Shown here: piece by piece, positions 13,523 to 28,921 of the stretch | Numbering within the stretch: the stretch's first letter is position 1 | How the letters are laid out: every line of letters starts with the position of its first letter | Source of the DNA: Pseudothermotoga sp. | GTDB lineage: Bacteria; Thermotogota; Thermotogae; Thermotogales; DSM-5069 | NCBI GenBank assembly: GCA_025060105.1 | Contig: JANXCS010000001.1 | Coordinates: 166,282 to 230,281 of the forward strand | DNA: 64,000 nt | Direction: 5' to 3' | The notes under the pieces: model-generated | Databases searched by the model: none | Seen by the model: only the letters and a program-made list of their open reading frames with translations | What the model was told of the DNA's origin: nothing | Position numbers and translations under genes: made by a program

Positions 13523-14944
13523 TCATTCAACGATGTGAACTTTGAGCATATTCGTTGTGCCCACCACTCCACATGGGGTTCCAAGTGTTATGATGACAAC
13601 ATCGGATGGTTCCACATAACCTAAAGTTTTCGCTTTTTCAACAGCAACGTGTAACACGATGTCCACCGAATAAGCCTCTGGGACAAGCACAGGCACCACA
13701 CCCCACACGATGGGGAGTTGAAAATACGTTGACTCTTTTGGTGTAGTAGCTAAAATGGGACAATTTGGTCTGAAGTAAGAAACTCGTCGTGCGGTGCTTC
13801 CAGAAGCGGTGGACGCGATGATTAGTTTTGCGTGAGTTTCCCTAGCGATTTCGTACGAACTCTTTGCGATGGCGTCTGAAGTATCAGTTGATTGCTCACG
13901 TCGCCTAGCTTCAAACCAAATTCCAAGTTCGTCCAAGTGTTCTTCCACACTTTTCAATATTTTTTTCATCGTTTCTACTACTAGAACTGGTCTTTCACCG
14001 ATAGCAGTCTCTATGGTCAACAGCAAACCATCGGCTCCATCTAGAATGGCATTGGCTATATCGGTAACTTCAGTACGAGTTGGTTGAGTGTTCTCGACCA
14101 TCGACTCGAGCAGCTGCGTGGCAACTATAATGGGTATTCTGAATCTTGAAGCCCTCGAGATCAGCATTTTTTGTAAAATCGGTAAATTCTCCAACGAGGT
14201 TTCGACAGCTAGATCGCCTCTCGCGATGATGATGCCGTCGCTTGCTTTACATATCTCCTCAAAATTTTCTAAAGCTTCTTTGGTTTCAATTTTCGCCAGA
14301 ACGGCAGAAGGAGAATCTAACGTTTCGAGTAAATTCTTGAGTTCATACACATCTTTGGAAGATCTAACGAAGGAGAGACAATAATAATCTATTCTAAGAT
14401 TCGAAGTGGACTTTATAACGTATCTGTCTTTTTCAGTGATAGAAGGAATCGATAGCTTCACTGTCGGTAAGTTCACACCGCTGTTTTTCTTGATCTTTCC
14501 TCCTCTTTCAACGAAGCAATCAACATATTTCCCGTACTTCTTAACGACTCTTAACTGCAATCTGCCATCATCTAAAAGTACAACATCACCTTCATTGATC
14601 TGCTGAATCACCCTCGATTCGCTTAGAATGACATATTTTTTGCTGGTTTGTAACTCGGCTTCACTCACTAAAACATTTTCTCCGTCCCGGACTTCCAAAA
14701 ATTCCAAGCTTGCAGGGAGCTTAATTCTCAGTTTGGAACCAGGTAGGTCTACAATGATTGAGAAAGGTTTAGAAGAATCCATCCTGACTTCATCGAGCAA
14801 ATTCACCAACTGGATCAGCCTATCCAGTTCATAATGTGTTGCACTCAATCTGAAACCACTCACGCCAGCCTTCAGCAGTTCCCTTATGGTAGTAACGTTT
14901 TCACTCTTTGGACCCAAACTGCACAAGATCTTTGTCTTCGTCAT
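13523..14944 (-). CDS. pyk: Pyruvate kinase
   Basis: 473 residues. It makes ATP and pyruvate from phosphoenolpyruvate, the last glycolytic step. The active-site blocks KIETKEALENFEEI, DGIIIARGDLAVE and VATQLLESMVENTQPTRTEV are intact and the C-terminal domain ends GTTNMLKVHIV. The N-terminal block, usually RxNxSHG, reads RLSATHY: the Asn and Ser that help hold the monovalent cation are replaced by Ser and Thr, so K+ dependence may differ. ATG at 14944 lies nine bases after the pfkA stop; the two form the classic glycolytic pair. About 75 bases without clear structure separate its end from the convergent psuG. Confidence 0.95.
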   Translation of the reverse strand: MTKTKILCSLGPKSENVTTIRELLKAGVSGFRLSATHYELDRLIQLVNLLDEVRMDSSKPFSIIVDLPGSKLRIKLPASLEFLEVRDGENVLVSEAELQTSKKYVILSESRVIQQINEGDVVLLDDGRLQLRVVKKYGKYVDCFVERGGKIKKNSGVNLPTVKLSIPSITEKDRYVIKSTSNLRIDYYCLSFVRSSKDVYELKNLLETLDSPSAVLAKIETKEALENFEEICKASDGIIIARGDLAVETSLENLPILQKMLISRASRFRIPIIVATQLLESMVENTQPTRTEVTDIANAILDGADGLLLTIETAIGERPVLVVETMKKILKSVEEHLDELGIWFEARRREQSTDTSDAIAKSSYEIARETHAKLIIASTASGSTARRVSYFRPNCPILATTPKESTYFQLPIVWGVVPVLVPEAYSVDIVLHVAVEKAKTLGYVEPSDVVIITLGTPCGVVGTTNMLKVHIVE

Positions 14945-14953
14945 GTTGATCCC

Positions 14954-15913
14954 TCAGGATAGCGTCATGCACATCTCATAAAGTGATAGGTCCAATTTTT
15001 TCTTGGTCGAAATTACTTCTTCAGTATCAATCAATGTTATTTGCCCAGATTTGAGGACAGTTGTCGCACATTTTTCTCCGTCAAGCAGAGCTTGTACAGC
15101 TCGTACACCCATGCGCGTGGCAAGCAATCTGTCAAAAGCCGTTGGACTTCCACCCCTTTGGATGTGTCCTAATATAGATATTCTCGTTTCATAACCGATT
15201 TTGTTCGAAATCTTGCGTGCCACTTCTTCTGCTTTTCCAGCACCTTCTGCGACGACGACTATGCAGTTTAATTTTCCTCTCTTTCGTTCTTCAAGTAATC
15301 TCTCTGCGAGTTGGTCAAAATCTATGGGCACTTCTGGGATTATCGCTGCTTCTGCACCTGTGGCGATGGCCGACATGAGTGCGATGTACCCAGATTCTCT
15401 TCCCATGACTTCCACTATGAACGCGCGCTCATGTGAGGTGGCCGTGTCTTTAAGCTTCTGTATTGCATCGACGACTGTGTTGAGACAAGTATCAACACCA
15501 ATACACATGTCGGTGTGTGCGATATCGTTGTCTATCGTACCTGGTACACCTATCACTGGCACACCGAATTCTTTGTGGAACGTTACGGAACCTGTCAGAC
15601 TTCCCTCGCCCCCTATTACGACCAAGCCTTCTATACCGAATTTCGCAAGTTGGTTGGCCGCTTTCTCTCGACCTTCTCTTGTAAAGAATTCTCCACAGCG
15701 ACTCGTCCTCAAAATTGTCCCGCCTTTCTCCATGATACCAGCGACGGACGCAAAGTTCAATTCTTTGATGGCTCCATCGATCAAACCACAGTAACCTCGT
15801 TCAATTCCAAAAACTTTCAGTCCATTTCTGACCCCATAGCGTACAACAGCTCTAATTGCTGCGTTCATGCCTGGTGAATCTCCTCCACTTGTCAAAACGC
15901 CTATTGTTTTCAT
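14954..15913 (-). CDS. pfkA: ATP-dependent 6-phosphofructokinase
   Basis: 319 residues, normal for bacterial PfkA. It phosphorylates fructose 6-phosphate with ATP. Motifs: [19 protein letters not shown] (ATP loop), GGTILRTSR with the donor-binding Arg, GGEGSLTGS (GGDGS position, here with Glu), VPGTIDND with catalytic Asp and the Gly typical of ATP enzymes, VEVMGRESG and GHIQRGGSP (sugar-phosphate binding). ATG 15913 follows GGGGGTATCAGC; an upstream in-frame ATG adds 48 unrelated residues and was rejected. It precedes pyk by nine bases. A TGGTATAAT element sits 38 bases upstream. Contrast with the two other PFK-family genes in this window at 21314 and 27911. Confidence 0.96.
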
Positions 15914-15950
15914 GCTGATACCCCCAGGTGTTAGAATTATCACTGGAAGA

Positions 15951-15959
15951 ATTATACCA
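15951..15959 (-). promoter_or_regulatory. Extended -10 promoter of pfkA-pyk
   Basis: On the minus strand the sequence is TGGTATAAT, a perfect extended -10. No good -35 is seen. Transcription would start at about 15944, roughly 30 bases before the pfkA ATG. The same nonamer occurs before frr at 56490-56498. Confidence 0.65.
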
Positions 15960-15967
15960 AGTCGAAG

Positions 15968-16207
15968 GTGATGAAGTTGTGGAAGGTACTTGTTGAAGGT
16001 GTGAATATCCCTCTTGCGAGTATGATGAAATCCATCCTTGAACAAAATGGTATTCAAGTTCTGACGAGACCTTCAAAACTGTTCGATCCAGTTATATTCG
16101 GTCAAGGTGGTACTGTGGATTTACTCGTGCTGGAAGACAAATTTGAAGAAGCACGTTCTTTGATCGAGGAGGCGCAGAAAAGTGGCGAAGAGGACACCGT
16201 TGTATGA
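15968..16207 (+). CDS. DUF2007 small protein
   Basis: 79 residues, soluble. The pattern [23 protein letters not shown] at the start and [20 protein letters not shown] near the end is that of the DUF2007 (putative signal-transducing, PII-like fold) family; function unknown. GTG 15968 and ATG 15971 are adjacent and either could start the protein. The 3' end overlaps gcvT by 26 bases, so this gene is translationally linked to the glycine cleavage genes, as its first member. Confidence 0.7.
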
Positions 16208-17279
16208 TGAACACATAAAACTTGGAGCAAGGATGATTGAATTTTCAGGTTGGATGATGCCTCTTCAGTATGAAAATATTGTATCAGAAGTTGAAGCTGT
16301 GAGGAAGAACGTAGCAATTTTCGATGTTTCTCACATGGGTGAGATATCGATAGTGGGACCAGACACGGTAAAGTTTTTAGATTGGTTGTTGACGAACGCG
16401 TTCAGTACTTTGACTGTCGGACAAGCCATGTATTCAGTCATTTGCAACAAAAATGGAGGTATAATCGATGATTTAATTGCTTACAAAATAGCCGAAGACG
16501 AAGCATTGTTGATCGTAAACGCTGCAAACGTTGAGAAAGATTTCAATTGGATCAGTTCATGTGCAAAGAGGTTCAATGTCAAAGTCGAGAATGTTTCCGA
16601 TCGCTACGGTCTCATCGCAGTTCAGGGGCCGAAGAGCGAAGCACTCTTTTCTTGCGTGTCTTCGGAGGTAACCTCTTTGAGATACTACCACTTCACTAAG
16701 TCTGTAATTTTTGGGAAAGAATGCATGGTCAGCAGGACGGGTTACACAGCAGAAGATGGTTTTGAGGTTTGTTGCTCTTGGCAAGACACCCCACATATTT
16801 GGCAGAATCTTTTTCGGATAGGTGAAAAATTCGAATTGAAACCCGCTGGACTTGGTGCGAGGGACATCTGCAGATTAGAGGCTTCTTACATGTTGTATGG
16901 CAGTGATATGGACGAAAATACAACCCCACTCGAAGTTGGACTCGGATGGGTGGTGAAGTTTGACAAAGATTTCGTGGGGAGAGAAGCATTACTTGCGCAA
17001 AAGGAACATGGTGTAACGAGACGTATCAGGGGCTTAAAACTTGAAGGTAAACGGATCGCAAGGCATGGTATGCGTGTTTTAAAAAACGGTAATCAAGTTG
17101 GGATGATCACAAGTGGTACTTTCTCTCCCACACTGCAAGCTTCTATCGCGCTGGCTATGCTAGATGCTTCCCTAAAACTGGGAGAAAGAGTGACAGTTGA
17201 TCTTAGAGGAACAGAGGTTGAGGCGGAAATTGTGAAACTTCCTTTTTACAGGGGGTCCGTAAAGAGCACATCAATTTGA
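16182..17279 (+). CDS. gcvT: Glycine cleavage system T protein (aminomethyltransferase)
   Basis: 365 residues, standard. It transfers the aminomethyl carbon from lipoyl-H protein to tetrahydrofolate, releasing ammonia. It begins [22 protein letters not shown], the family opening (shown here in part), with NVAIFDVSHMGEI (about 42-54), RTGYTAEDGFEV and GLGARDICRLEASYMLYG (folate and active-site region) and a C-terminal TSGTFSPTLQ. GTG 16182 follows GAGGAGGCGCAGAAAA inside the DUF2007 gene. gcvH follows after 13 bases. The order DUF2007-T-H-PA-PB gives a complete glycine cleavage set apart from the lipoamide dehydrogenase (L protein), which is not in the window. Confidence 0.95.
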   Translation: MAKRTPLYDEHIKLGARMIEFSGWMMPLQYENIVSEVEAVRKNVAIFDVSHMGEISIVGPDTVKFLDWLLTNAFSTLTVGQAMYSVICNKNGGIIDDLIAYKIAEDEALLIVNAANVEKDFNWISSCAKRFNVKVENVSDRYGLIAVQGPKSEALFSCVSSEVTSLRYYHFTKSVIFGKECMVSRTGYTAEDGFEVCCSWQDTPHIWQNLFRIGEKFELKPAGLGARDICRLEASYMLYGSDMDENTTPLEVGLGWVVKFDKDFVGREALLAQKEHGVTRRIRGLKLEGKRIARHGMRVLKNGNQVGMITSGTFSPTLQASIALAMLDASLKLGERVTVDLRGTEVEAEIVKLPFYRGSVKSTSI

Positions 17280-17292
17280 GGAGGTGGCGCAG

Positions 17293-17664
17293 ATGATGAG
17301 GTTCACAAAGACGCACGAATGGGTTAAAGTTGAAGGCAAGATAGCGATTGTGGGCATAAGCAACCATGCACAAGAAAAACTGGGTGATGTGGTCTATGTT
17401 GAGCTACCACAGGTTGGTAAAATCGTGAAAAAAGGTGAAGCTTTCATGAGTATCGAATCAGTTAAAGCGGCAAGCGATGTCTATGCGCCCGTCAGTGGAA
17501 AAATCGTCGAAGTGAATCAAAAGCTTTCCAATCAACCTGAGTTGATCAACAAAGATGCAGAAGGAGAAGGATGGTTGGTGAAGATCGAGATTGTTGATCT
17601 AAAAGAATTATCGGATCTCCTTGATGATGAAGCATACAGGAGGTTCTGCGAGGAGGAAGGTTGA
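17293..17664 (+). CDS. gcvH: Glycine cleavage system H protein
   Basis: 123 residues. Carries the lipoyl arm that shuttles the aminomethyl group between P, T and L proteins. The lipoylated Lys is in FMSIESVKAASDVYAPVSG (about residues 51-69, Lys in ESVKA). TKTHEWVKVEG at the N terminus and the C-terminal EEYRRF-type end (DDEAYRRFCEEEG) are standard. I took ATG 17293 because GAGGAGGTG ends six bases before it; GTG 17284 overlaps that site. Its end abuts gcvPA. Confidence 0.96.
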   Translation: MMRFTKTHEWVKVEGKIAIVGISNHAQEKLGDVVYVELPQVGKIVKKGEAFMSIESVKAASDVYAPVSGKIVEVNQKLSNQPELINKDAEGEGWLVKIEIVDLKELSDLLDDEAYRRFCEEEG

Positions 17665-17666
17665 TT

Positions 17667-18998
17667 ATGTTTCCATACATTCCTCACACGAAAGAAGAGA
17701 TAGAACAAATGCTAAGAACCATAGGTGTTGATTCTTTAGAGGAACTCTACAAAGATGTGCCAGTTACAGTGCATCAACTGAACCTTCCAAAAAGTCAAGA
17801 TGAATTCACTGTAGCCAAGAGATTGAAAGAATTGGCTGACAGGAATGTGATATTGGAGAAAGAAAAAATATTCGCCGGGGCTGGTGTATATGTACATTAT
17901 ATCCCTTATGCTGTGAAAGCCATTGTTTCAAAGCCAGAATTTGTAACAGCCTACACTCCCTACCAAGCTGAAGTTTCTCAAGGTACTCTGCAGGCTTTGT
18001 TTGAATATCAAACGATGATTTGTGAGCTTACTGGAATGGAAGTTGCAAATTCTTCTATGTACGATGGTGCCAGTGCTTTCGCTGAAGCAGTATTGATGGC
18101 TTACAGAATAAACGGTAAAACTAAGATACTGTTGAGTGAAGGCATCCATCCGGAGTACATTCAAACGTGTAGAACGTACTCCAAGGGTGTTGGATTGAAA
18201 CTTGAGCTTGTTCCAGTTGATGAGAGAGGTACAACAGATCTGAACATTATCTCGAAGCTTCTTGATGCGGATACTGCCGCAGTAGCAGTACAGTATCCAA
18301 ACTTTTTCGGCATCATCGAGGATTTAAAAGCTATTCGAGAAATTGCAAAAGATATCGTTTTCATAGTGATTGCAGAACCCATCTCACTTGCGCTGCTCGA
18401 ACCACCAGGGAGTTTTGGTGCGGACATCGTAGTGGGGGATGGTCAACCGTTGGGGATACCGCCAAATTTTGGAGGTCCAACAGTTGGCTTTTTCGCGACG
18501 CTGGAAAAACACGTGAGGAAAATGCCTGGTAGGATCATAGGCAGGACCAAAGACGTGGAAGGTAAGACAGGTTATGTGATGATACTTCAAACCAGAGAAC
18601 AACATATCAGGCGTGAGAAAGCTACGTCTAACATATGCACCAACCACGCTTTGATGGCCTTAACGAATGCGGTTTACATGAGTCTCATGGGACCAGAAGG
18701 TTTGCGTGAAGTAGCAAGGAGAAGCCATGCAAACGCGCATTATTTTGCAATGAAACTTCAAGAAAGAGGGTTCAAGTTAAAGTTCGGAGGGTCTTTTTTC
18801 AACGAATTTGTAGTTGTAGTCGGCGAAAATTATGAGAAAGTTTGGAAAGAGATCTTCAAGGAAGGATTTTTGGGACCTCTACCTCTCGGGTGGTTCGATG
18901 AGCGATACAAAAGTCTCGCGCTCGCTTGCGCAACTGAAGTGAATACGAAGGAGAGTATAGATTCGATGGTGAATATGCTGGAGCGTGGTTTGAAATGA
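17667..18998 (+). CDS. gcvPA: Glycine dehydrogenase (decarboxylating) subunit 1
   Basis: 443 residues: the N-terminal half of the P protein as a separate subunit, as in many thermophiles and Firmicutes. With GcvPB it decarboxylates glycine using PLP bound on the other subunit. It opens [15 protein letters not shown] and carries [33 protein letters not shown] and [15 protein letters not shown], all family blocks. ATG 17667 is favoured over a TTG at 17661 by the spacing from GAGGAGG at 17651. It overlaps gcvPB by four bases. Confidence 0.95.
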
Positions 18999-20431
18999 CG
19001 GTGTTCGAGAAATCTGTGAATGGAAGAATTGGTTTCAAATTTCCCGAATCTGACGTGAACCTTCAAAGTATGGATTTGCCAGGGAATTTAGTTAGAACTC
19101 GAAATTTAGGTTTGCCGCAACTCAATGAGGTTGATGTGGTGAGGCATTATACCGAACTTGCTTCAAAGAACTACTCTGTCGATAAAGGATTTTACCCACT
19201 AGGATCGTGTACAATGAAATACAATCCAAAATTGAACGAGTTTCTCGCCTCATTGGAGGGTTTCACTGAGTTACATCCATACCAACCACTCGAAACAGTG
19301 CAAGGCGCTCTAGAACTGATGTATGAGCTCAAGAAAGCTCTGTGTGAAATAACTGGCATGGATGACATGACGCTTCAACCAGCTGCTGGTGCTCACGGTG
19401 AATTGACTGGTTTGCTCATAGTGAAAGCTTATCATCTTTCAAAAGGAGATACTAAACGAACGGTTGCCTTGATACCGGATTCGGCCCACGGAACAAACCC
19501 AGCTTCTGCAGCTATGGCTGGATTCGAAGTTTTAGAGTTGAAATCTACTAAAGAAGGTCTCTTGGACATCGAGGAACTCAGAAGATACTTGAATGAAAGA
19601 GTGGCCGTTCTCATGCTCACTAATCCAAACACACTTGGTTTGTTTGAAAAAGATATTTTCAAGATTGAACAACTCGTTCACGAAGCTGGCGCTTTACTTT
19701 ATTACGACGGAGCAAATTTGAACGCCATTATGGGAAGGTTCAGGCCAGGCGATATGGGTTTCGATGTGGTACATCTGAATCTCCATAAGACCTTTTCTGC
19801 TCCTCACGGAATGGGGGGGCCTGGCAGTGGACCTGTAGGTGTTAAGGAATTTCTGGCGAGATTTTTACCGATTCCGGTGATCAGAAAATCTGAGGATGGA
19901 TCATACTACCTCGACTACAATTTACCAGATAGTATCGGAAGAATGAGGAGTTTCTATGGTAATTTCACAGTTTTAGTGAAAGCTTATTCATACATATTGA
20001 TGATGGGAAGAGATGGGTTAAAGCATGCTAGTGAAATGGCAGTGTTGAATGCTAATTATTTACGAAAGTTACTTTCCAAATACTTCAAAATGGCTTCAGA
20101 AAGAGTTTGTATGCATGAGTTCGTGGTTGACGGGAGTGAGTTTGTGAAAAAAACTGGTGTGCGTGTTTCAGACATAGCTAAGCGACTGTTGGACTACGGC
20201 GTTCATGCACCAACGGTTTATTTTCCACTGATAGTTCACGAAGCCATGATGATTGAACCTACCGAAACAGAGAGCAAACAAACTCTTGATCAATTTGCAG
20301 AAATTATGGGTAAAATTGTTGATGAAGCGATTAGAACTCCTGATCTTGTTAGGAATGCTCCACACAATACTCCTGTAAAGAGATTGGACGATACCGGGGC
20401 AACTAAAAATCCGATCTACAGACACCGTTGA
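18995..20431 (+). CDS. gcvPB: Glycine dehydrogenase (decarboxylating) subunit 2
   Basis: 478 residues: the PLP-binding half of the P protein. The cofactor Lys lies in [20 protein letters not shown] (about residues 257-276). Other family blocks are [27 protein letters not shown] and [16 protein letters not shown]. The C terminus ends in a family-typical [15 protein letters not shown] tail. ATG 18995 overlaps the gcvPA stop. Together with T and H this allows glycine oxidation to CO2, NH3 and methylene-THF, or its reverse. Confidence 0.96.
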
Positions 20432-21313: not shown

Positions 21314-22573
21314 TCAATCCGCTATGTTTGCAAATTTTTGTGCGAATTGTTCCGGAGTCATTTTGGCTATTGAAGCCAGTTTAGAGAGCATAGTGGGATC
21401 TTCCAGATCTCTCTTTGTAAGTTTTATCATGTAACTCTTCGCAACCTTGTAATGTTCAGAATTTAGATCTACTAAGCGTACCTTGGTTCTTCCAGTTTTA
21501 GGATCTATCAGTTCTTCAAAGGGTAAAACAGTTATTCTGCCTTGGTCCACACAAACCATACCGTTACTCAATTTTGGCTCTATTTTTCCAAGCAGGAATT
21601 GAACCGCACCGTATCCCAGTGTTCTTGTGTAATCAATATCGAACGGAATGGGTCTAGCGCATCTCAGTTCATAGCCTAGTGTGACATCAACGATTGGCAT
21701 TTCTTCGCCTCTTTCAGCGAATCTTTTCTGGATTTCTCTTTTCAATATTGTAGCGAGTGGTATTTCACTCAATCTGATATGACCATGTGGATCTTCTTTA
21801 ACAATCACACCGGGTATCCTCGCAAGTTCCTGCTTGTCGAGTATCTCACCTATTCCTTCAGCTATCACAGCAAGACCATCATTTCTTCCAAGCGCCCTTC
21901 GTTTTATTATCGCTGCTTCGAGTACATCGCAAACTTCAGACAAGCTCACTTTCTCCTTTCGGAATTCTTCTGCGATGACCGTTACAGTTGCGCTGGCAGC
22001 TTTTCCTATTCCGAGCGCAAGGTGTCCGGCCTTCCTACCCATGACCACTACGAAGTACCATCTGTTGGTAGTTCTTGAATCTTGAAGCAGATTATAGACA
22101 AGCTCTGTACCCACGTGGCGAGCGGTTTCGTACCCAAAGGTCGGCATACCACCGGGCAAGGGCAGATCGTTATCAATGGTCTTAGGAACATGAGCCACGC
22201 GGATTGAACCCCCAGATAATTTTGAAACCGCCGATGCAGAGAAGGCGGTATCGTCGCCACCGATGGTCACAAGATACTTCACGTTGAGTTTTTTCAAAGT
22301 TTCGACAACGCTCTCAAGATCTTTTTGATTCTTAGTTGGATTCGCCCTCGAAGTTCTGAGGATCGAGCCACCTTCAGTGTGAATTCGTGACACATCCGAG
22401 ATGCTGAGCGATCTTATCATATCCGTTCTGCCCTTCATGAGATGCTCAAATCCATCGTATATTCCTATCACCTCAAGCCCATTGTTTGTAGCTTCAATAG
22501 TTACGGCGTTTATGACGCTGTTTATACCAGGAGCAGGTCCTCCTCCGACCAAGATTGCAACACGTTCTGGCAT
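21314..22573 (-). CDS. pfp: Pyrophosphate-dependent 6-phosphofructokinase
   Basis: 419 residues, the length of the Thermotoga PPi-PFK group. It phosphorylates fructose 6-phosphate with PPi, reversibly. Two positions mark the donor: GGDD (in YLVTIGGDDTAFSAS) replaces the GGDGS of ATP enzymes, and PKTIDND has Lys where ATP enzymes have Gly. Other blocks are LVGGGPAPGINSVI at the N terminus, GGSILRTSRANP, VVVMGRKAGHLALG and GYELRCARPIPFD. ATG 22573 was chosen over GTG 22579 because GAGGAGGTG lies eight bases before the ATG. A TATAAT at 22597-22602 (minus) is a plausible -10, without a clear -35. It diverges from the lysine-pathway leader. Confidence 0.95.
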   Translation of the reverse strand: MPERVAILVGGGPAPGINSVINAVTIEATNNGLEVIGIYDGFEHLMKGRTDMIRSLSISDVSRIHTEGGSILRTSRANPTKNQKDLESVVETLKKLNVKYLVTIGGDDTAFSASAVSKLSGGSIRVAHVPKTIDNDLPLPGGMPTFGYETARHVGTELVYNLLQDSRTTNRWYFVVVMGRKAGHLALGIGKAASATVTVIAEEFRKEKVSLSEVCDVLEAAIIKRRALGRNDGLAVIAEGIGEILDKQELARIPGVIVKEDPHGHIRLSEIPLATILKREIQKRFAERGEEMPIVDVTLGYELRCARPIPFDIDYTRTLGYGAVQFLLGKIEPKLSNGMVCVDQGRITVLPFEELIDPKTGRTKVRLVDLNSEHYKVAKSYMIKLTKRDLEDPTMLSKLASIAKMTPEQFAQKFANIAD

Positions 22574-22764
22574 TCTCACTACACCTCCTCTTCAAAATTA
22601 TAAATGTGCTCGGTATCGACCGTGTGGTTAACAATTTCGTCAGAGAGTTTTATTTATTTGTTCAGCAATTGGTGTTCTAGATGAGGTTAGAATTCAAACT
22701 AAAGAGAGGTAGTGTTTGTGACATGTTGAACGAAGGTCTTATTGGAACGTTTTTGAAGGTCCAA

Positions 22765-22824
22765 ATGAAGATGGAGAAGAAGTGCAACCGCCCGGTGATC
22801 TGTGGCGGTGTGTGCTCATTGTAG
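22765..22824 (+). CDS. Possible leader peptide of the dap operon
   Basis: A 19-residue frame, MKMEKKCNRPVICGGVCSL, preceded by GAAGGT four bases upstream. Three of the first six residues are Lys and three of the last thirteen are Cys. Its stop codon falls in the loop of the leader hairpin described at 22791-22854, and codons 9-12 run through the 5' arm of that hairpin, so translation would interfere with folding. The same frame is open from an ATG at 22681, which has a poor ribosome binding site. That placement, ahead of a lysine-pathway operon, is why I report it; there is no protein-level proof. Confidence 0.4.
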   Translation: MKMEKKCNRPVICGGVCSL

Positions 22825-22882
22825 CACACCAGTCGGAGGAGAAAGATCACCGGGCTACCGAAAAAGGTAGCCCGGTTTTTTT
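22791..22882 (+). promoter_or_regulatory. Attenuator-like leader: antiterminator hairpin overlapping a terminator
   Basis: CCCGGTGATC (22791-22800) pairs perfectly with GATCACCGGG (22845-22854), enclosing an inner hairpin GTGTGCT/AGCACAC (22810-22829). The last five bases of that 3' arm are also the first bases of a perfect ten-base terminator stem (22850-22875) followed by seven T. The two structures cannot form together, so the first acts as an antiterminator. The enclosed unpaired segments TGTGGC and AGTCGGAGGAGAAA could be a ligand pocket. No lysine-riboswitch or T-box consensus is visible. Controls the operon starting at 22900. Confidence 0.7.
22850..22882 (+). terminator. Conditional intrinsic terminator before the dap operon
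   Basis: CCGGGCTACC (22850-22859) and GGTAGCCCGG (22866-22875) form a perfect stem around GAAAAA, followed by TTTTTTT. It sits 18 bases before the first structural gene and shares five bases with the upstream hairpin arm. Confidence 0.9.
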
Positions 22883-22899
22883 ATAGGAGGGGTGAAAGC

Positions 22900-23661
22900 A
22901 TGGTGGGTGAACCTGCAGAAATTACTAGTACCGAGAGTGTGGAGTTTCAAAGTACGGAACAGATCATCGAAATGATCAGCAAGTCAAAGAAAAAAACACC
23001 GATCATCGCTTATGTGAAGGGAAGACTAGATCGAGTTGATTTCTCATCGGTACGCTTTTTTGGCACCCATGAATTCGGTATTGTCGTAGCAGATTACGAA
23101 GATTTCAAAAATTTGATCGAAAACCACCGTCAATTCATCGAAGATTTTCATCTGCAGGTTACAGCAAGAAATTCAGCGCTCCCTCTAGCTGATCTAACGA
23201 AGTACAATGCGAGAATAGAACCCGGTGCGATTATAAGGGACATGGTAAAGATTGGGGATGGAGCTGTGATCATGATGGGTGCTGTCATCAACGTTGGAGC
23301 CACGATCGGTGAAAGAACCATGATTGACATGAACGCCGTTGTGGGGGCGAGGGCTGTGATTGGGAAGAATTGTCACGTTGGTGCAGGAGCTGTCATTGCG
23401 GGTGTTTTAGAACCGCCTTCTGCAGTACCAGTAGTGGTGGAGGACGATGTAATGATTGGTGCGAACGCTGTAGTTCTTGAAGGTGTAAGAGTTGGTAGAG
23501 GAGCCGTGGTAGCTGCAGGGGCAGTTGTCATCAATGATGTGGAGCCGTACACGGTTGTTGCTGGTGTACCTGCGCGATTCGTTAAAAGGGTCGACGAGAG
23601 AACAAGAGAAAAGACTAAAATAGTTGAAGCACTCAGGCATTTGAATACAACTATTAGGTGA
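22900..23661 (+). CDS. dapH: Tetrahydrodipicolinate N-acetyltransferase
   Basis: 253 residues. It acetylates tetrahydrodipicolinate with acetyl-CoA in the acetyl branch of the diaminopimelate/lysine pathway. An N-terminal alpha/beta part (DapH_N-like, [20 protein letters not shown]) precedes a left-handed beta-helix made of hexapeptide repeats: [39 protein letters not shown] and so on, about residues 103-225. The closing block [14 protein letters not shown] is typical. ATG 22900 follows ATAGGAGGGGTGAAAGC. It is the first gene after the attenuator and lies six bases before the aminotransferase. The older name dapD for this acetyl-type enzyme is also used. Confidence 0.93.
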
Positions 23662-23667
23662 TCGTGT

Positions 23668-24855
23668 ATGGAGCACATCTGTCAGGTTTACAAGCCTTTC
23701 CCTATACAGATAGACCGTGCGAGGGGGGTTTACATATACTCTAAGGACGGTAAACGTTATTTTGATTCCTTTTCAGGCATAGGTGTTTTAGCCTTCGGAC
23801 ATGGTGATGAAGACATCAAGAAAGTCATGATCGAGAAAATGGAACGTTATATACACACATCGAATTTTTTCTTCGATGAAGACGCCGAAGAAGTAGCAGA
23901 AAAGTTAGTTAAAAAGACAGGTAGAACTGGCAGAGTATTTTTTGCAAATTCCGGTGCTGAAGCTAATGAAGCGGCATTGAAGGCTGTTAAAAAATTGCGG
24001 AAGGGTTTGATAGTATCCTTCGAAAAGAATTTTCATGGTAGGACTATTGCCACACTTTCGCTCACAGGATTCGAAAATTTGAGGAAGCCATTTGAACCCC
24101 TCGTTCCAGAAGTGATTATTTTACCTTACAACGATGTGAGATCCTTTGAATTTTTCCTTGAAAAGAGAGGAACAGAAATTGCAGCTGTATTTGTTGAGTG
24201 TATCCAGGGCAGTGGTGGTTTGAATGTCCTGAGTAAGGATATTGCCAGGCTCATCATGCAGGCGAAAATCGATTTTGGGTATCTGCTGGTCGCAGATGAG
24301 GTTCAATCCGGCCTTGGTAGGACGGGCAAATTCTTTGCCTATCAGCATTTTGATTTACAGCCTGATATTGTTACTGTTGCAAAAGCACTGGGAGGAGGTT
24401 TACCTCTCAGTGCTGCATTGTTTCTCGATGAAGTGAAAGATGTATTTGGTTATTCAGATCATGGATCCACCTTTGCTCCAAACCCCATTGCACTTGCAGG
24501 TGCAAAGGTGGTCTTGTCAAAATTGAGCGATGATTTCATAGAATCAGTTGCGAAAAAAGGTGATTTCCTCAAGAAAGAACTTTTAAAAATGACCCCGAGA
24601 TTGATTCAAAAGATCAAAGGTCTCGGCCTAATGCTGGGCGTTGAAGTTGGAGTGGATACCAATTTTCTGAGGCAAACTGCCATGAAAAATGGGCTTTTGC
24701 TGAATATTGTTTCCAACAACATCGTGAGGCTCCTTCCAGCTCTCAATATCACCTTAGAGGAGATTAAAGAGATGGTAGATCTGCTCGAAAGGAGTTTGGA
24801 TGAGGTGAACTATGGACGAGATCACGCTGAGAAGGTTGATTCATCAAAATCCTGA
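23668..24855 (+). CDS. Class III aminotransferase, probably N-acetyl-LL-2,6-diaminopimelate aminotransferase
   Basis: 395 residues. A PLP-dependent acetylornithine-type enzyme: FFANSGAEANEAALKAVKK (about 91-109), NFHGRTIATLSLTG, LVADEVQSGLGRTGKFFAY and VTVAKALGGGLPLSA, with the PLP Lys in AKALGGG. The location between the acetyltransferase and the deacetylase of the acetyl branch makes N-succinyl/N-acetyl-aminoketopimelate transamination the likely role. Class III (ArgD-like) rather than the class I PatA/DapX type usual in Bacillus is notable; it could also serve arginine synthesis. ATG 23668 lies six bases after dapH. It overlaps the next gene by 44 bases. Confidence 0.85.
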   Translation: MEHICQVYKPFPIQIDRARGVYIYSKDGKRYFDSFSGIGVLAFGHGDEDIKKVMIEKMERYIHTSNFFFDEDAEEVAEKLVKKTGRTGRVFFANSGAEANEAALKAVKKLRKGLIVSFEKNFHGRTIATLSLTGFENLRKPFEPLVPEVIILPYNDVRSFEFFLEKRGTEIAAVFVECIQGSGGLNVLSKDIARLIMQAKIDFGYLLVADEVQSGLGRTGKFFAYQHFDLQPDIVTVAKALGGGLPLSAALFLDEVKDVFGYSDHGSTFAPNPIALAGAKVVLSKLSDDFIESVAKKGDFLKKELLKMTPRLIQKIKGLGLMLGVEVGVDTNFLRQTAMKNGLLLNIVSNNIVRLLPALNITLEEIKEMVDLLERSLDEVNYGRDHAEKVDSSKS

Positions 24856-25915
24856 ACTAGCGTTCGAAGAACACAACACTCAGAGATTGATCGTTGAATT
24901 TTTGCGTGAATTGGGTATGAACAATTTTGTGAAGATCGGTACGGGTGTTTTAGCTCCCGTTGTTAGGGCTAAGGATGAGGCTTTCATCATCGTGAGGGCA
25001 GAAATGGACGCCCTACCTATCGAAGAAAAAACAGATTATGCTTTCCGCTCAAAAAATGGAAAGATGCATGCGTGTGGTCATGATTTTCATATTGCAGCAG
25101 TTTGCCGTGTCGTTAGACGTGTCATACAAGAAAAACTTCGAGGAAACTTTTTGTTTGTTTTTCAACCAGCCGAGGAAAGCGGCGCTGGTGCCAAGATCAT
25201 CGTTGAACACATACTTCAGTGGGATTTCAAGGTAAAGGCTGCACTGGCAATGCATGTTACGGATGAATATCCAGTGGGAGTCATTGCGAGTAAGCCGGGG
25301 GTTCTTTTCAGTGCTTCTTGTGAGGCAAATGTTCGAGTGGAAGGTCAACCCGTTCATGTGGCGATGCACAAACTTGGTAAAGATGCACTGCGTGGAGCCA
25401 TTGAATTTCTGAAAGGTATTTACAACTCTGATTGGGAGGACTCGCTCGTTTACTTTGGAAAACTTTCCGCAGGACAAGCAAGGAATGTGGTGGCTGGCGA
25501 AGCACTCCTTGAGGGAACTATCAGAGCCCGCAGTCTTGAAAAGGTAGAAGAAATCGTAAAAGGGATACGTGAACTTGGAAGAATGGTCGAACAAGAAACA
25601 GGATTAAAAGTTTATGTGGATCTTGGAGCCAAATGTCCCGAAGTCAACGTTAACGAAGATTTGTTTGTAATTCTAAAGAACATTTCAAAGCAGTATGAGA
25701 TCGAATGTCTACAGTGTGAAGTGAAACTCACCGCAGAGGATTTTGGTTATTTCTCCAGACATTTCCCGACTTTGATGTTTTGGTTTGGCGTCAGAGAAAG
25801 TTCTCACATTGAGGGGTTGCACTCCGCAAAGTTTTTACCAAGCGATGAATTGATACCTCTAGCAGGAGACTTTTTGACAGGCATTCTTGATTCATTGTGC
25901 AAAGATCAGCTATGA
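24812..25915 (+). CDS. dapL: N-acetyldiaminopimelate deacetylase (M20 amidohydrolase)
   Basis: 367 residues. An M20-family metal-dependent amidohydrolase. The motif MHACGHDFHIAAVC (about residues 85-98) and RAEMDALPIEEKTDYAF, FQPAEESGAGA and the late SSHIEGLHSAKF are the family's metal and substrate residues; two metal ions are expected. In this operon it should remove the acetyl group from N-acetyl-LL-diaminopimelate to give LL-diaminopimelate, the last step of the acetyl branch. The gene symbol is not uniform across databases (ykuR in Bacillus), so take it as a working label. ATG 24812 is inside the aminotransferase gene and its ribosome binding site is GGATGAGGTG. Confidence 0.88.
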   Translation: MDEITLRRLIHQNPELAFEEHNTQRLIVEFLRELGMNNFVKIGTGVLAPVVRAKDEAFIIVRAEMDALPIEEKTDYAFRSKNGKMHACGHDFHIAAVCRVVRRVIQEKLRGNFLFVFQPAEESGAGAKIIVEHILQWDFKVKAALAMHVTDEYPVGVIASKPGVLFSASCEANVRVEGQPVHVAMHKLGKDALRGAIEFLKGIYNSDWEDSLVYFGKLSAGQARNVVAGEALLEGTIRARSLEKVEEIVKGIRELGRMVEQETGLKVYVDLGAKCPEVNVNEDLFVILKNISKQYEIECLQCEVKLTAEDFGYFSRHFPTLMFWFGVRESSHIEGLHSAKFLPSDELIPLAGDFLTGILDSLCKDQL

Positions 25916-25957: not shown

Positions 25958-27904
25958 TTGTTTTTGGCATTCATTGCTTCACTTTTGGGATTAGCTTACG
26001 TGCTGCTCCTTTCCATGAAGATTTTGGACAGTAGCCCTGGCAATGAAAAAACGATGCAACTTTCAGAGATCATTCAAAAAGGCGCTAGATCTTTTTTGTT
26101 TCAAGAGTACAAGGTCTTTTTACCGTTCGTTCTTGCTCTATCCATTTTACTTGGTATCTCATTGGATTGGTATATTTCGGCAGTTTTTACCGTTGGTGCA
26201 ATTCTCTCAACGCTCAGCGGTTTCTTCGGTATGGCGGTGGCCACGAAAGCGAATGCTCGAACGAGTTGGGCAGCGAGATCCAGTCTTGGAAAAGCTTTGA
26301 AAATTTCTTTCAGTGGTGGAGCCGTCATGGGTTTAACAGTTTCATCGCTTGGTTTGCTGGGATTGGTATTAGTGTACATATTGGCCAAGGACGTTTCAAA
26401 AGCTAGTTATTATTCGTTGGGAGCTTCTTTCGTTGCCCTTTTTGCAAGGGTTGGAGGGGGTATATTCACAAAGGCAGCCGACGTGGGTGCCGATATTGTT
26501 GGAAAAACTGAGGCCAATCTTCCCGAAGACGATCCGAGGAATCCTGCTGTAATTGCAGATAACGTTGGTGACAATGTGGGTGACGTGGCCGGTATGGGAG
26601 CAGATTTGTTTGAATCGTATGTTGGTTCAATGTTCTCCGCCCTCGCTCTGGCTTCCGCTTTAGGTGATGAACGTAAGCTTAACTTCGTCATGTTCACAGT
26701 TTCCATGGGTTTGTTGTCATCCATGTTTTCAGTGTGGTTGACAAGGTTTCTCAGTGATAAAACAAAGAATGTTGCTTCGACTCTAAGGATTGGTACACTC
26801 ATGGCAAATATAGTTCTAGCTGTATGTCTCATGTTTTACTCGATCATTCAGGAGAGCTTCAAAGAATTTTTTGTTGTGCTAGTTGGTATCATCATTGGTA
26901 TCACGATCGGCTTACTCACGGAGTATTACACTTCTGGTGCTAGAATAGAAAAACTTGCAAGATCCGCTTTAATGGGTCCTGCAAATCTTTTGATCAATGG
27001 CCTAGCTCTTGGTATGGAGTCAACGCTCATTGTGACTATCATGATAGCTGCTGGTGTGATTTTTTGTCATTGGTTACTTGGTTTGTTTGGAGTGGCTCTT
27101 GCTGCAGTTGGAATGCTTGCCACCTTAGGAATGAGTCTCTCAATAGATGCTTATGGTCCCATAGCGGACAACGCCGGTGGTATAGCTCAGATGGCGAGTT
27201 TGGGAGAAGAAGTCAGGAAAGTGACAGATCAGCTTGATGCTGTGGGTAACACCACTGCAGCGATGGGCAAGGGGTTTGCCATAGCTTCCGCTGCCATGAC
27301 GAGTTTGGCACTTTTTGCTAATTTTGCCAGTGTATCTCACATGGGAAATTTGGATATAAGGCAACCCACCCTTTTTGTTGGCGCTTTGATCGGGGCAATG
27401 TTACCTTTCCTTTTCAGCGCCCTGGCAATGAAAGCTGTAGGTTGCGCAGCAGACGAAATGGTTGAGGAAATCAGAAGACAGATAAGGGAAATACCAGGCA
27501 TCATATCTGGTGAAACTCTTCCAAATTACGCTAAATGTATTCAAATAGCGACCAGAGGCGCTCTCAAGAGAATGGTGGTTCCCACCCTGCTGGCAATTGG
27601 TTCACCCACCCTGGCTTATTTAACAATCGGTGTCATTGGGACCGCAGGACTATTAATTGGTGCCACGGTGTGTGGTGTGATGGTTGCGATTTTTATGGCT
27701 AATTCGGGTGGAGCATGGGATAATGCGAAGAAATACGTTGAAGATGGACACTTTGGTGGTAAAGGTTCTATAACGCACAAAGCCACAGTCATCGGTGATA
27801 CTGTGGGAGATCCATTCAAAGACACCGCTGGTCCATCAATAAACATTCTAATTAAGCTCATGGCAATCACATCAGTAGTGATAGCTACAATGATGGGGAG
27901 GTAA
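25958..27904 (+). CDS. hppA: Membrane-bound ion-pumping pyrophosphatase
   Basis: 648 residues, about 16 membrane segments. It couples PPi hydrolysis to H+ or Na+ export. The substrate region is intact: KAADVGADIVGKTEANLPED, NPAVIADNVGDNVGDVAGM, and late GGAWDNAKKYVE and GDTVGDPFKDTAGPS. The K+-dependence position is GNTTAAMGKG: Ala, as in K+-requiring enzymes (K+-independent ones have Lys). The Thermotoga maritima enzyme of this class is known to pump Na+; whether this one does is inference. The start is TTG 25958 behind GAGGAGGTGCACCCCT. It is followed by a PFK-like gene six bases on. Confidence 0.95.
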   Translation: MFLAFIASLLGLAYVLLLSMKILDSSPGNEKTMQLSEIIQKGARSFLFQEYKVFLPFVLALSILLGISLDWYISAVFTVGAILSTLSGFFGMAVATKANARTSWAARSSLGKALKISFSGGAVMGLTVSSLGLLGLVLVYILAKDVSKASYYSLGASFVALFARVGGGIFTKAADVGADIVGKTEANLPEDDPRNPAVIADNVGDNVGDVAGMGADLFESYVGSMFSALALASALGDERKLNFVMFTVSMGLLSSMFSVWLTRFLSDKTKNVASTLRIGTLMANIVLAVCLMFYSIIQESFKEFFVVLVGIIIGITIGLLTEYYTSGARIEKLARSALMGPANLLINGLALGMESTLIVTIMIAAGVIFCHWLLGLFGVALAAVGMLATLGMSLSIDAYGPIADNAGGIAQMASLGEEVRKVTDQLDAVGNTTAAMGKGFAIASAAMTSLALFANFASVSHMGNLDIRQPTLFVGALIGAMLPFLFSALAMKAVGCAADEMVEEIRRQIREIPGIISGETLPNYAKCIQIATRGALKRMVVPTLLAIGSPTLAYLTIGVIGTAGLLIGATVCGVMVAIFMANSGGAWDNAKKYVEDGHFGGKGSITHKATVIGDTVGDPFKDTAGPSINILIKLMAITSVVIATMMGR

Positions 27905-27910
27905 GGATGT

Positions 27911-28921
27911 ATGAAAAGAGCGGCCGTTCTCTGCGTGGGTAATGACTGTCCCGGTTTGAATGCAGCCATCAGAGCTATAGTAGTTAAGAGTACAGAGCTT
28001 GGGATTGAAGTTCTCGGTGTCAGAGATGGTTTTGAGGGACTCTTGAAAGACAATCTTGATGTATTGACTAAGATGAACGTGTCTGGAATCTTACACAGAG
28101 GAGGCACCATTTTAGGTACATCGTTACTGATACCAGAAACTGAAGAACAGATCAAATCCATTCAGAGGAAAGTAGAGCAGTATGCGATCACTTCATTGTT
28201 GATTCTTGGGGGCAGACTTGGGGCAAGGTCTGCATTGAACCTTGCAAAGTATGGAGTGCCTTCTGTGCTCATTCCGGCGACTATAGACAATGATCTTGCC
28301 TTCAGTGATTTTTCGATAGGCTTCTTCACGGCAGTTGAAAATGTTAAGAATGCTTTGGATGTACTTCATTCTACTGCGGAATCTCACCATAGAGTGATGA
28401 TAGTTGAAACCATGGGTAGGCCGGGAGGTTGGATAGCCACCGTTGGAGGATTAACAGGCGGAGCAGATTACGTTGTGTCCAGCGCGGAACCCTTTGAACC
28501 GATGGATCTTCTCAAAAGAATAAAAGTACGTTACGAAGGTCATAAGAAATTTTCCATCATCGTTGTTGAGAGTGGTGTCAAATTACCCGAGGATTTTTAT
28601 GAAAACTTAAACCTCTCGAAGGATACACCAGCATCGCAAGCTATAGGTACATTTGTGGAGAAAAATTTCAAAGAACTTGGGGTGGAGTGGAGATACACCA
28701 ACCTTGGATACTTGCAACGTGGTGGTAGCCCAGTGGCAATGGATCGCTTGATAGCCACGTTAATGGCTACCAGAGCTGTGGAGATGATTAAAGTGGCTAA
28801 AGTGTACCATGCAGTAGGTATGAAAGGTCTGACTGTGACGGAAGCACCGTATTCTGAAACTATGTTGAATATCAGAGCTGTTGAAGACTACCTGAAAGTA
28901 CTTGTCAAACTCTTTTACTGA
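27911..28921 (+). CDS. Divergent phosphofructokinase-family protein with altered phosphate-donor site
   Basis: 336 residues of PFK fold. Sugar-phosphate side conserved: PATIDND (catalytic Asp), SHHRVMIVETMGRPGG, IIVVESGVK and LGYLQRGGSPVAMDR. Donor side altered: the GGDGS motif reads GGRLG, the N-terminal GGDxPG loop reads GNDCPG, and the Arg of GGTxLxTSR is Leu (GGTILGTSLL). It therefore matches neither the ATP type (GGDGS, Gly in PGTIDND) nor the PPi type (GGDD, Lys in PKTIDND). It may use another donor, bind sugar phosphate as a sensor, or be inactive. The frame is intact and compact, with ATG 27911 behind GGGAGGTAAGGATGT, so it is not a pseudogene. It lies 6 bases after hppA. Confidence 0.85.
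   Translation: MKRAAVLCVGNDCPGLNAAIRAIVVKSTELGIEVLGVRDGFEGLLKDNLDVLTKMNVSGILHRGGTILGTSLLIPETEEQIKSIQRKVEQYAITSLLILGGRLGARSALNLAKYGVPSVLIPATIDNDLAFSDFSIGFFTAVENVKNALDVLHSTAESHHRVMIVETMGRPGGWIATVGGLTGGADYVVSSAEPFEPMDLLKRIKVRYEGHKKFSIIVVESGVKLPEDFYENLNLSKDTPASQAIGTFVEKNFKELGVEWRYTNLGYLQRGGSPVAMDRLIATLMATRAVEMIKVAKVYHAVGMKGLTVTEAPYSETMLNIRAVEDYLKVLVKLFY

Follow-up and report, generated by a model that had tools for sequence, protein, structure and literature searches.

We found that the dapH gene in the stretch of DNA that we analysed (64,000 nucleotides, here called the window) was preceded by a leader that is highly likely to be a ribosome-mediated transcription attenuator of the trp/his type sensing charged lysyl-tRNA. 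Lysine-starved ribosomes very probably switch the lysine genes on in this system, and as the best reading of our comparisons the leader would stand in for the lysine riboswitch. From sequence we established the frame, the near-fixed Lys codons and the mutually exclusive helices, found that these are conserved and covary, and saw that the leader has taken over targets of the lysine riboswitch. Every feature of a ribosome-mediated attenuator that can be looked for in this way was present. Namely, there was a leader ORF with a start codon, a Shine-Dalgarno (SD)-like sequence and a stop codon upstream of the terminator; control codons, at a constant distance from the switch, for the amino acid that the genes behind it make or import; a mutually exclusive antiterminator and intrinsic terminator; and, by computed pairing in the dapH leaders, release of the antiterminator arm by a stalled ribosome, which was weaker in some transporter leaders. 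On the other hand, the covariance models of the lysine riboswitch (RF00168) and the T-box gave no match, and the leader lacked the conserved peptide independent of RNA pairing that is typical of a nascent-peptide arrest leader.

The features of the locus were as follows (positions of the window).

22704 to 22709, + strand: probable Shine-Dalgarno sequence GAGAGG of the leader peptide, from sequence and from aligned SD-like GGAG/GAGG in relatives
22723 to 22824, + strand: leader peptide ORF of 33 codons, MLNEGLIGTFLKVQMKMEKKCNRPVICGGVCSL and stop, from orthologous 32-36-codon frames with an SD-like sequence in 9 genomes
22768 to 22782, + strand: control codons Lys16 (22768-22770) and Lys19 with Lys20 (22777-22782, AAGAAG)
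22787 to 22809, + strand: hairpin A (anti-antiterminator), ACCGCC 22787-22792 with GGCGGT 22804-22809, from MFE folds and a compensatory change in G006
22790 to 22801, + strand: antiterminator 5' arm GCCCGGTGATCT of a 12-bp helix
22810 to 22829, + strand: hairpin B, GTGTGCT 22810-22816 with AGCACAC 22823-22829, from sequence, fold and compensated stem changes in G006
22844 to 22855, + strand: antiterminator 3' arm AGATCACCGGGC, with double-sided pair changes at 13 of the 19 positions compared among leaders
22849 to 22882, + strand: intrinsic terminator, 11-bp stem, loop of 6, seven T
22885 to 22892, + strand: Shine-Dalgarno sequence AGGAGGGG of dapH, from sequence, not within the terminator stem
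22900 to 23661, + strand: dapH, tetrahydrodipicolinate N-acetyltransferase (TIGR03532 DapD_Ac, 348.7 bits, cut-off 231.75)
23668 to 24855, + strand: aminotransferase of the acetylornithine/acetyl-diaminopimelate type (TIGR00707, 377.6 bits, below the cut-off of 410.05)
24812 to 25915, + strand: amidohydrolase, probable N-acetyl-diaminopimelate deacetylase (TIGR01891, 207.7 bits, cut-off 153.75), its role assigned from context

The three genes behind the leader (dapH, the aminotransferase and the amidohydrolase) made up the acetyl branch of lysine synthesis. The divergent gene upstream of the leader encoded a PPi-dependent phosphofructokinase (21314-22579). Phosphofructokinase-family genes were located at two further places in the window, 14954-16057 (assigned by sequence) and 27911-28921 (ATP type), and a pyruvate kinase-like gene was found at 13523-14944. 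A sodium-translocating pyrophosphatase (25958-27904) was located directly 3' of the lysine genes. According to the translations, positions 16182-20431 contained a glycine cleavage cluster (gcvT, gcvH, gcvPA and gcvPB), where no glycine riboswitch was detected at the Rfam gathering threshold.

The helices of the switch agreed with the original prediction and went beyond it. A ten-base stem had been proposed, and 22791-22800 (CCCGGTGATC) was indeed the exact reverse complement of 22845-22854; with a further pair at either end, the stem reached 12 bp (22790-22801 with 22844-22855). A terminator stem at 22850-22875 with seven T had been described, which was confirmed; it reads CCGGGCTACC-GAAAAA-GGTAGCCCGG, the seven T are at 22876-22882, and the stem (22849-22876) had 11 bp when the A-T pair 22849/22876 was included. 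The last 7 nucleotides of the antiterminator 3' arm served as the 5' arm of the terminator, and the long stem and the terminator competed for this common arm, as had been claimed. Hairpins A and B were two additional helices. The antiterminator 5' arm was held within the loop and inner stem of hairpin A, which in G006 carried the compensatory change GCAGCCGCC:GGCGGCTGC, and the stop codon of the leader peptide (TAG, 22822-22824) was located at the loop of hairpin B. In the dapA leader of G006 and in the asd leaders, the equivalents of hairpin A were longer. The arrangement of stem, terminator and frame was more than chance, since it was conserved upstream of dapH in 9 of the 11 genomes of the family.

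As a control for the antiterminator pairing, its 5' side was shuffled 300 times. One of these shuffles paired equally well with the 3' arm in the window, and in most leaders the duplex was better than all 300; it was weaker in the g31 group, where up to 15 of 300 shuffles reached it. Among 16 representative leaders, the both-sided pair changes came with no broken pair. These leaders were aligned to each other by hand. Since each pair of arms had been picked as the best helix, the lack of broken pairs followed by construction and it was the double-sided changes that were informative.

The leader frame was longer than had been thought. A 19-codon frame with ATG at 22765, Lys at codons 2, 5 and 6 and the stop at 22822-22824 had been described; this frame exists, but it was the 3' part of an ORF of about 33 codons that begins further upstream in relatives. 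It was likely that the leader in the window started at ATG 22723, giving 33 codons, since the frames of relatives had 32-36 codons with an SD-like sequence before the start. The spacing of 13 nt between GAGAGG and this ATG was long for a Shine-Dalgarno sequence, which is a point against the attenuator reading. An SD-like sequence preceded nearly all of the 43 leader ORFs described below, which were 22-44 codons in size. The peptides of relatives finished in ...EMKNAKKCNRPVI..GGV..L or in ...KKRSRPVIDGGCLRLL (compare MLNEGLIGTFLKVQMKMEKKCNRPVICGGVCSL in the window). In the better-aligned half of the alignment, the length changes within the frame were whole codons (3 bases after GATC in genus g4 and 3 in G004), and the stretch between the stop codon and the 3' arm varied in length by single bases in the same alignment. 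Over the 69 nt that ran through the start of the arm, the proposed frame was open in all 33 leaders compared and the other two frames in 3 and 5 of them. These frames were chosen as open frames, so the contrast in Lys and His and the constant register to the arm weighed more than openness.

This contrast was pronounced. Among the 198 codons at positions -8 to -3 before the arm, frame 0 had 59 Lys and 44 His, against 5 and 0 in one of the other frames and 14 and 0 in the remaining one. The first set had 14 biosynthetic leaders, in which Lys accounted for 37.5% of the last eight codons ahead of the arm, compared with 4.6% in the remainder of the peptides; for Arg the two values were 3.6% and 6.3%, and for His 1.8% and 2.0%. 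The 19 transporter leaders had 27.6% His before the arm and 0% elsewhere, with 14.5% and 3.3% for Lys. Small register shifts aside, a Lys codon occupied position -4, counted from the arm's Pro codon or the codon equivalent to it, in the dapH, asd and dapA leaders and in the dapF leader of G009, which had a single Lys at the control position. In the dapA leader of G006 and the asd leaders of family f3, a control Lys codon was inside the 5' strand of hairpin A. The peptides ahead of lysine genes included KKCNRPVI, KKRSRPVI, IKRYCPVI, VKKAKHSRLVI, IIKKRNRPPV, IIKKTKHNCPL, NKKAKRSHPL, NKKAKRSCPL, KSKAKRSCPL and KNKKYVKCPPG; across them the Lys codons kept their place, and the other residues and the sequence of the arm varied. 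A synonymous-substitution test of the peptide was weak (third-position excess, P ~0.05; synonymous codons, P 0.17). A weak signal of this type is common for leader peptides.

From these features we infer that the ribosome stalls, which way the switch responds, and that lysine is the signal in vivo. When lysine is short, a ribosome on the 33-codon leader would stall at Lys19/Lys20, and its front edge would cover the 5' strand of hairpin A so that the antiterminator arm at 22790-22801 is freed. The freed arm would pair with 22844-22855 once this segment is made, blocking the terminator and allowing the operon to be transcribed. When lysine is plentiful, the ribosome would proceed to the stop codon in hairpin B and depart, and without translation hairpin A would form. 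In both of these states the arm would be kept from pairing with the 3' arm, and the terminator at 22849-22882 would end transcription.

The geometry of a stalled ribosome was consistent with this scheme. Following toeprinting, we assumed a ribosome whose front edge lies 15 nt downstream of the first P-site base. The computed edge was then at 22792 with Lys20 in the A site and at 22789 with Lys19. The 5' strand (22787-22792) of hairpin A was thus masked completely or by half, and 9 or all 12 antiterminator pairs, respectively, could still form, with 22793-22801 or 22790-22801 free. Computed pairing of the arm in the window, before the 3' arm exists, fell from 0.63 to 0.09 with the stalled ribosome. 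The drop was seen in all nine dapH leaders: the values were 0.54-0.72 for free RNA, and 0.09-0.46 once a ribosome was placed at Lys20 or the corresponding codon. For some transporter leaders of g31 and f9, little release was computed. The original prediction had judged the fit of the stall position to the arm as only fair, and this judgement did not hold: the fit was good once hairpin A was counted, since the ribosome would mask A and free the arm. The scheme was weakest when lysine is plentiful: a ribosome that has reached the stop codon covers approximately 22805-22834, with the 5' arm already behind it, and termination would rely on steric hindrance or on quick release and refolding.

Two options had been left open before this analysis, ribosome stalling at the Lys codons and ligand binding by the enclosed unpaired segments. 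The first was strongly favoured by our comparisons and the second was not. The design was conserved and covarying and had no match in Rfam. Under the second option, a metabolite riboswitch, lysine, diaminopimelate or S-adenosylmethionine would bind an aptamer made of the unpaired stretches that the 12-bp helix encloses, and this would shift the choice between antiterminator and terminator. In its favour, the region between the arms is compact and structured, and many riboswitches share such a switch architecture. However, these enclosed segments were not conserved, whereas the coding frame, the Lys codons and the complementarity of the arms were, and the loop between the arms ranged from 26 to 54 nt across leaders; we consider this explanation very improbable. 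Even less credit can be given to a plain terminator with a fixed fraction of readthrough and an incidental small frame. A strong terminator was present, but so were an exclusive 12-bp helix and a frame conserved over six families. The conservation and covariation in related Thermotogota that the original prediction had set as a check were found in these same six families.

The other explanations keep the ribosome and change what it senses. The C-terminal KKCNRPVI could arrest the ribosome on a metabolite, as in TnaC, rather than empty A sites doing so at Lys codons, and KKCNRPV(I/V) was invariant in the dapH leaders of genera g1 and g4. But such invariance is expected from the overlapping RNA helices, most of the residues conserved among the dapH leaders were encoded in paired RNA, and the peptides of other lysine genes differed (KRYCPVI, KKRNRPPV, KKTKHNCPL, KKAKRSCPL and KAKHSRLVI) while the Lys codons stayed. 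Peptide arrest was thus improbable, if the least improbable of the alternatives. A response to basic amino acids generally, or mainly to arginine or histidine, with lysine as one input only, would agree with the Arg codons often found near the arm and with the His and Arg codons of the transporter leaders. Since only Lys was enriched in the biosynthetic leaders (37.5% vs 4.6%) and the CGC Arg codon lay inside the helices, we give this possibility very little weight.

To obtain the distribution of the leader, 103 Thermotogota genomes were searched with a covariance model built on the dapH leaders, and upstream regions were then read. G006 was excluded from the model because the MAFFT alignment misplaced its gap in hairpin A. 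In total we found 43 leaders of the same design in six Thermotogota families, located before dapH, dapF, dapA, asd or an ABC transporter of the basic-amino-acid type. The genome of the window (1.92 Mb, close to Pseudothermotoga) belonged to family f1 with 11 genomes, nine of which kept the leader upstream of dapH. In the tenth (G009), a diverged form stood ahead of dapF-dapH; no dapH match better than approximately 1e-14 was obtained in the eleventh, which is 71% complete. The leader also preceded dapA in G004, G006 and G009; asd in G047 (family f6), at the head of a gene row holding dapA and dapH; asd in all 8 readable genomes of the f3 genera g6 and g14; dapF in G058 (family f5); and, in families f1, f9 and f11, the binding protein of an ABC transporter of the polar amino acid type. 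It was present at a truncated locus of G071 (L082) as well. In the genome of the window, the dapA-like and asd-like genes had no such leader directly upstream. Upstream of asd in f8 (G049, G059) and in most of f5, the stretch read contained neither RF00168 nor a recognisable leader-peptide attenuator. Several matches were discarded: a weak one in G039 (L079) and antisense ones at the leader itself (L087, L088) were judged to be chance or terminator symmetry, and L057, L058, L061 and L065 were weak BLAST matches rather than leaders. The viral contigs L043, L044 and L045 (IMG/VR) had the exact inverted repeat CGCCCGGTGRTC ... GATCACCGGGC with similar spacing, probably by chance.

With respect to known RNAs, a scan of the window locus and the leaders at the Rfam gathering threshold, extended to E up to 10 at the locus, found no family match; an STnc310 match (E 0.017) was well below its gathering score and was dismissed as chance. 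The absence of a lysine riboswitch (RF00168) or T-box (RF00230) noticed earlier was borne out at these thresholds, and the Rfam check proposed along with it matched no known riboswitch class.

RF00168 was absent from all 11 genomes of f1, from the f3 genera g6 and g14 and from G047, and it was present once per genome in family f2 and in the remaining f3 genera. Where f2 genera had dapH, it was on the same strand as this gene and 3.5-4 kb upstream of it. It was directly before the orthologue of the transporter binding protein in the f2 genera g7, g12 and g13 (G013, G029, G031, G033, G035 and G037), which had no dapH-level match. This position before the dapH operon or the orthologous transporter in f2 argues that the leader occupies both target classes of the lysine riboswitch. 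Among the lysine operons read, none had both the riboswitch and the leader. Riboswitch-led lysine operons of Thermotogae are listed in PMC5584792.

The transporter leaders followed the riboswitch in a less regular way. Genus g25, lacking dapH and RF00168, had transporter leaders with KKHVK, and genus g31 and family f9, possessing both, had His/Arg-rich ones, LHHH(K/R)L(W/R) and RHHSRC. However, G069 combined the riboswitch with a KKHVKR transporter leader and broke this simple pattern. The g31 (family f11) and f9 leaders before the binding protein (L133-L141, L146-L148) read LHHHKLWRPV, LHHHRLRRPV and RHHSRC on the same scaffold. They appear to be attenuators of the His/Arg type on a transporter whose f2 orthologue is under the lysine riboswitch. 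The best match of the binding protein was the Lys/Arg/Orn-type subfamily TIGR01096, below its cut-off, and the substrate is likely to be a basic amino acid.

We lean towards the view that control of lysine genes in Thermotogota switched several times between the lysine riboswitch and the lysine-codon attenuator, and that the scaffold of one transporter was retuned among Lys, His and Arg codons by lineage. The attenuation mechanism itself is known; its lysine specificity and its setting in Thermotogota appear undescribed. To our knowledge, no leader-peptide attenuator is known for lysine biosynthesis and none in Thermotogota. A search of the open-access literature turned up neither a lysine leader-peptide attenuator nor one of any kind from Thermotogota. 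If true, our reading would add a lysine-specific ribosome-mediated attenuator, extend attenuation to a new amino acid and a deep-branching thermophile phylum, and provide a natural riboswitch replacement within one phylum. It would also offer a clean comparative system, with orthologous operons under a riboswitch in one lineage and under translation in the next, and an independent hint at what an uncharacterised family of transporters carries. Moreover, it would account for the missing lysine riboswitch in the Pseudothermotoga-like and g6/g14 genomes, in contrast to most Thermotogales, which have one (PMC3766115).

Several known systems can be compared with the leader. The lysine riboswitch (L-box, RF00168) shares its target genes, that is, the lysine operon and the lysine-type transporter in sister lineages, but is a different RNA; the leader has no aptamer, and the signal would be read by the ribosome. 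A T-box (RF00230) would also sense uncharged tRNA and control a terminator, whereas the leader had no T-box match and has a translated frame. The nearest cases in the literature searched were two. In Sinorhizobium, a small ORF with Thr and Lys codons precedes an aspartate dehydrogenase gene (PMC10117765). As a passage of PMC4833913 (citing Lopatovskaya et al. 2010) has it, the lysQ leader of Lactococcus lactis was predicted to confer histidyl-tRNA-dependent attenuation on a basic amino acid permease; on this account it is comparable with the His-rich transporter leaders found here, but belongs to a Firmicute permease gene and not to lysine biosynthesis. The ilvBNC attenuator of Corynebacterium glutamicum (PMC11857589) also has three hairpins, but it concerns branched-chain amino acids and another lineage. 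Rfam motifs exist for the his, leu, thr and trp attenuators (PMC3766115). By working principle the leader is like the his, trp, thr, leu, ilv and phe attenuators of Proteobacteria and Actinobacteria, which have a translated leader with codons for the end product and in which the position of the ribosome sets the choice between antiterminator and terminator. In comparison to them, the leaders described here concern lysine (Lys, His or Arg at the transporter), are found in Thermotogota and match no Rfam model. They are also compact: the protective hairpin has its 5' strand at the control codons or immediately behind them, and the coding sequence of the peptide includes the antiterminator arm.
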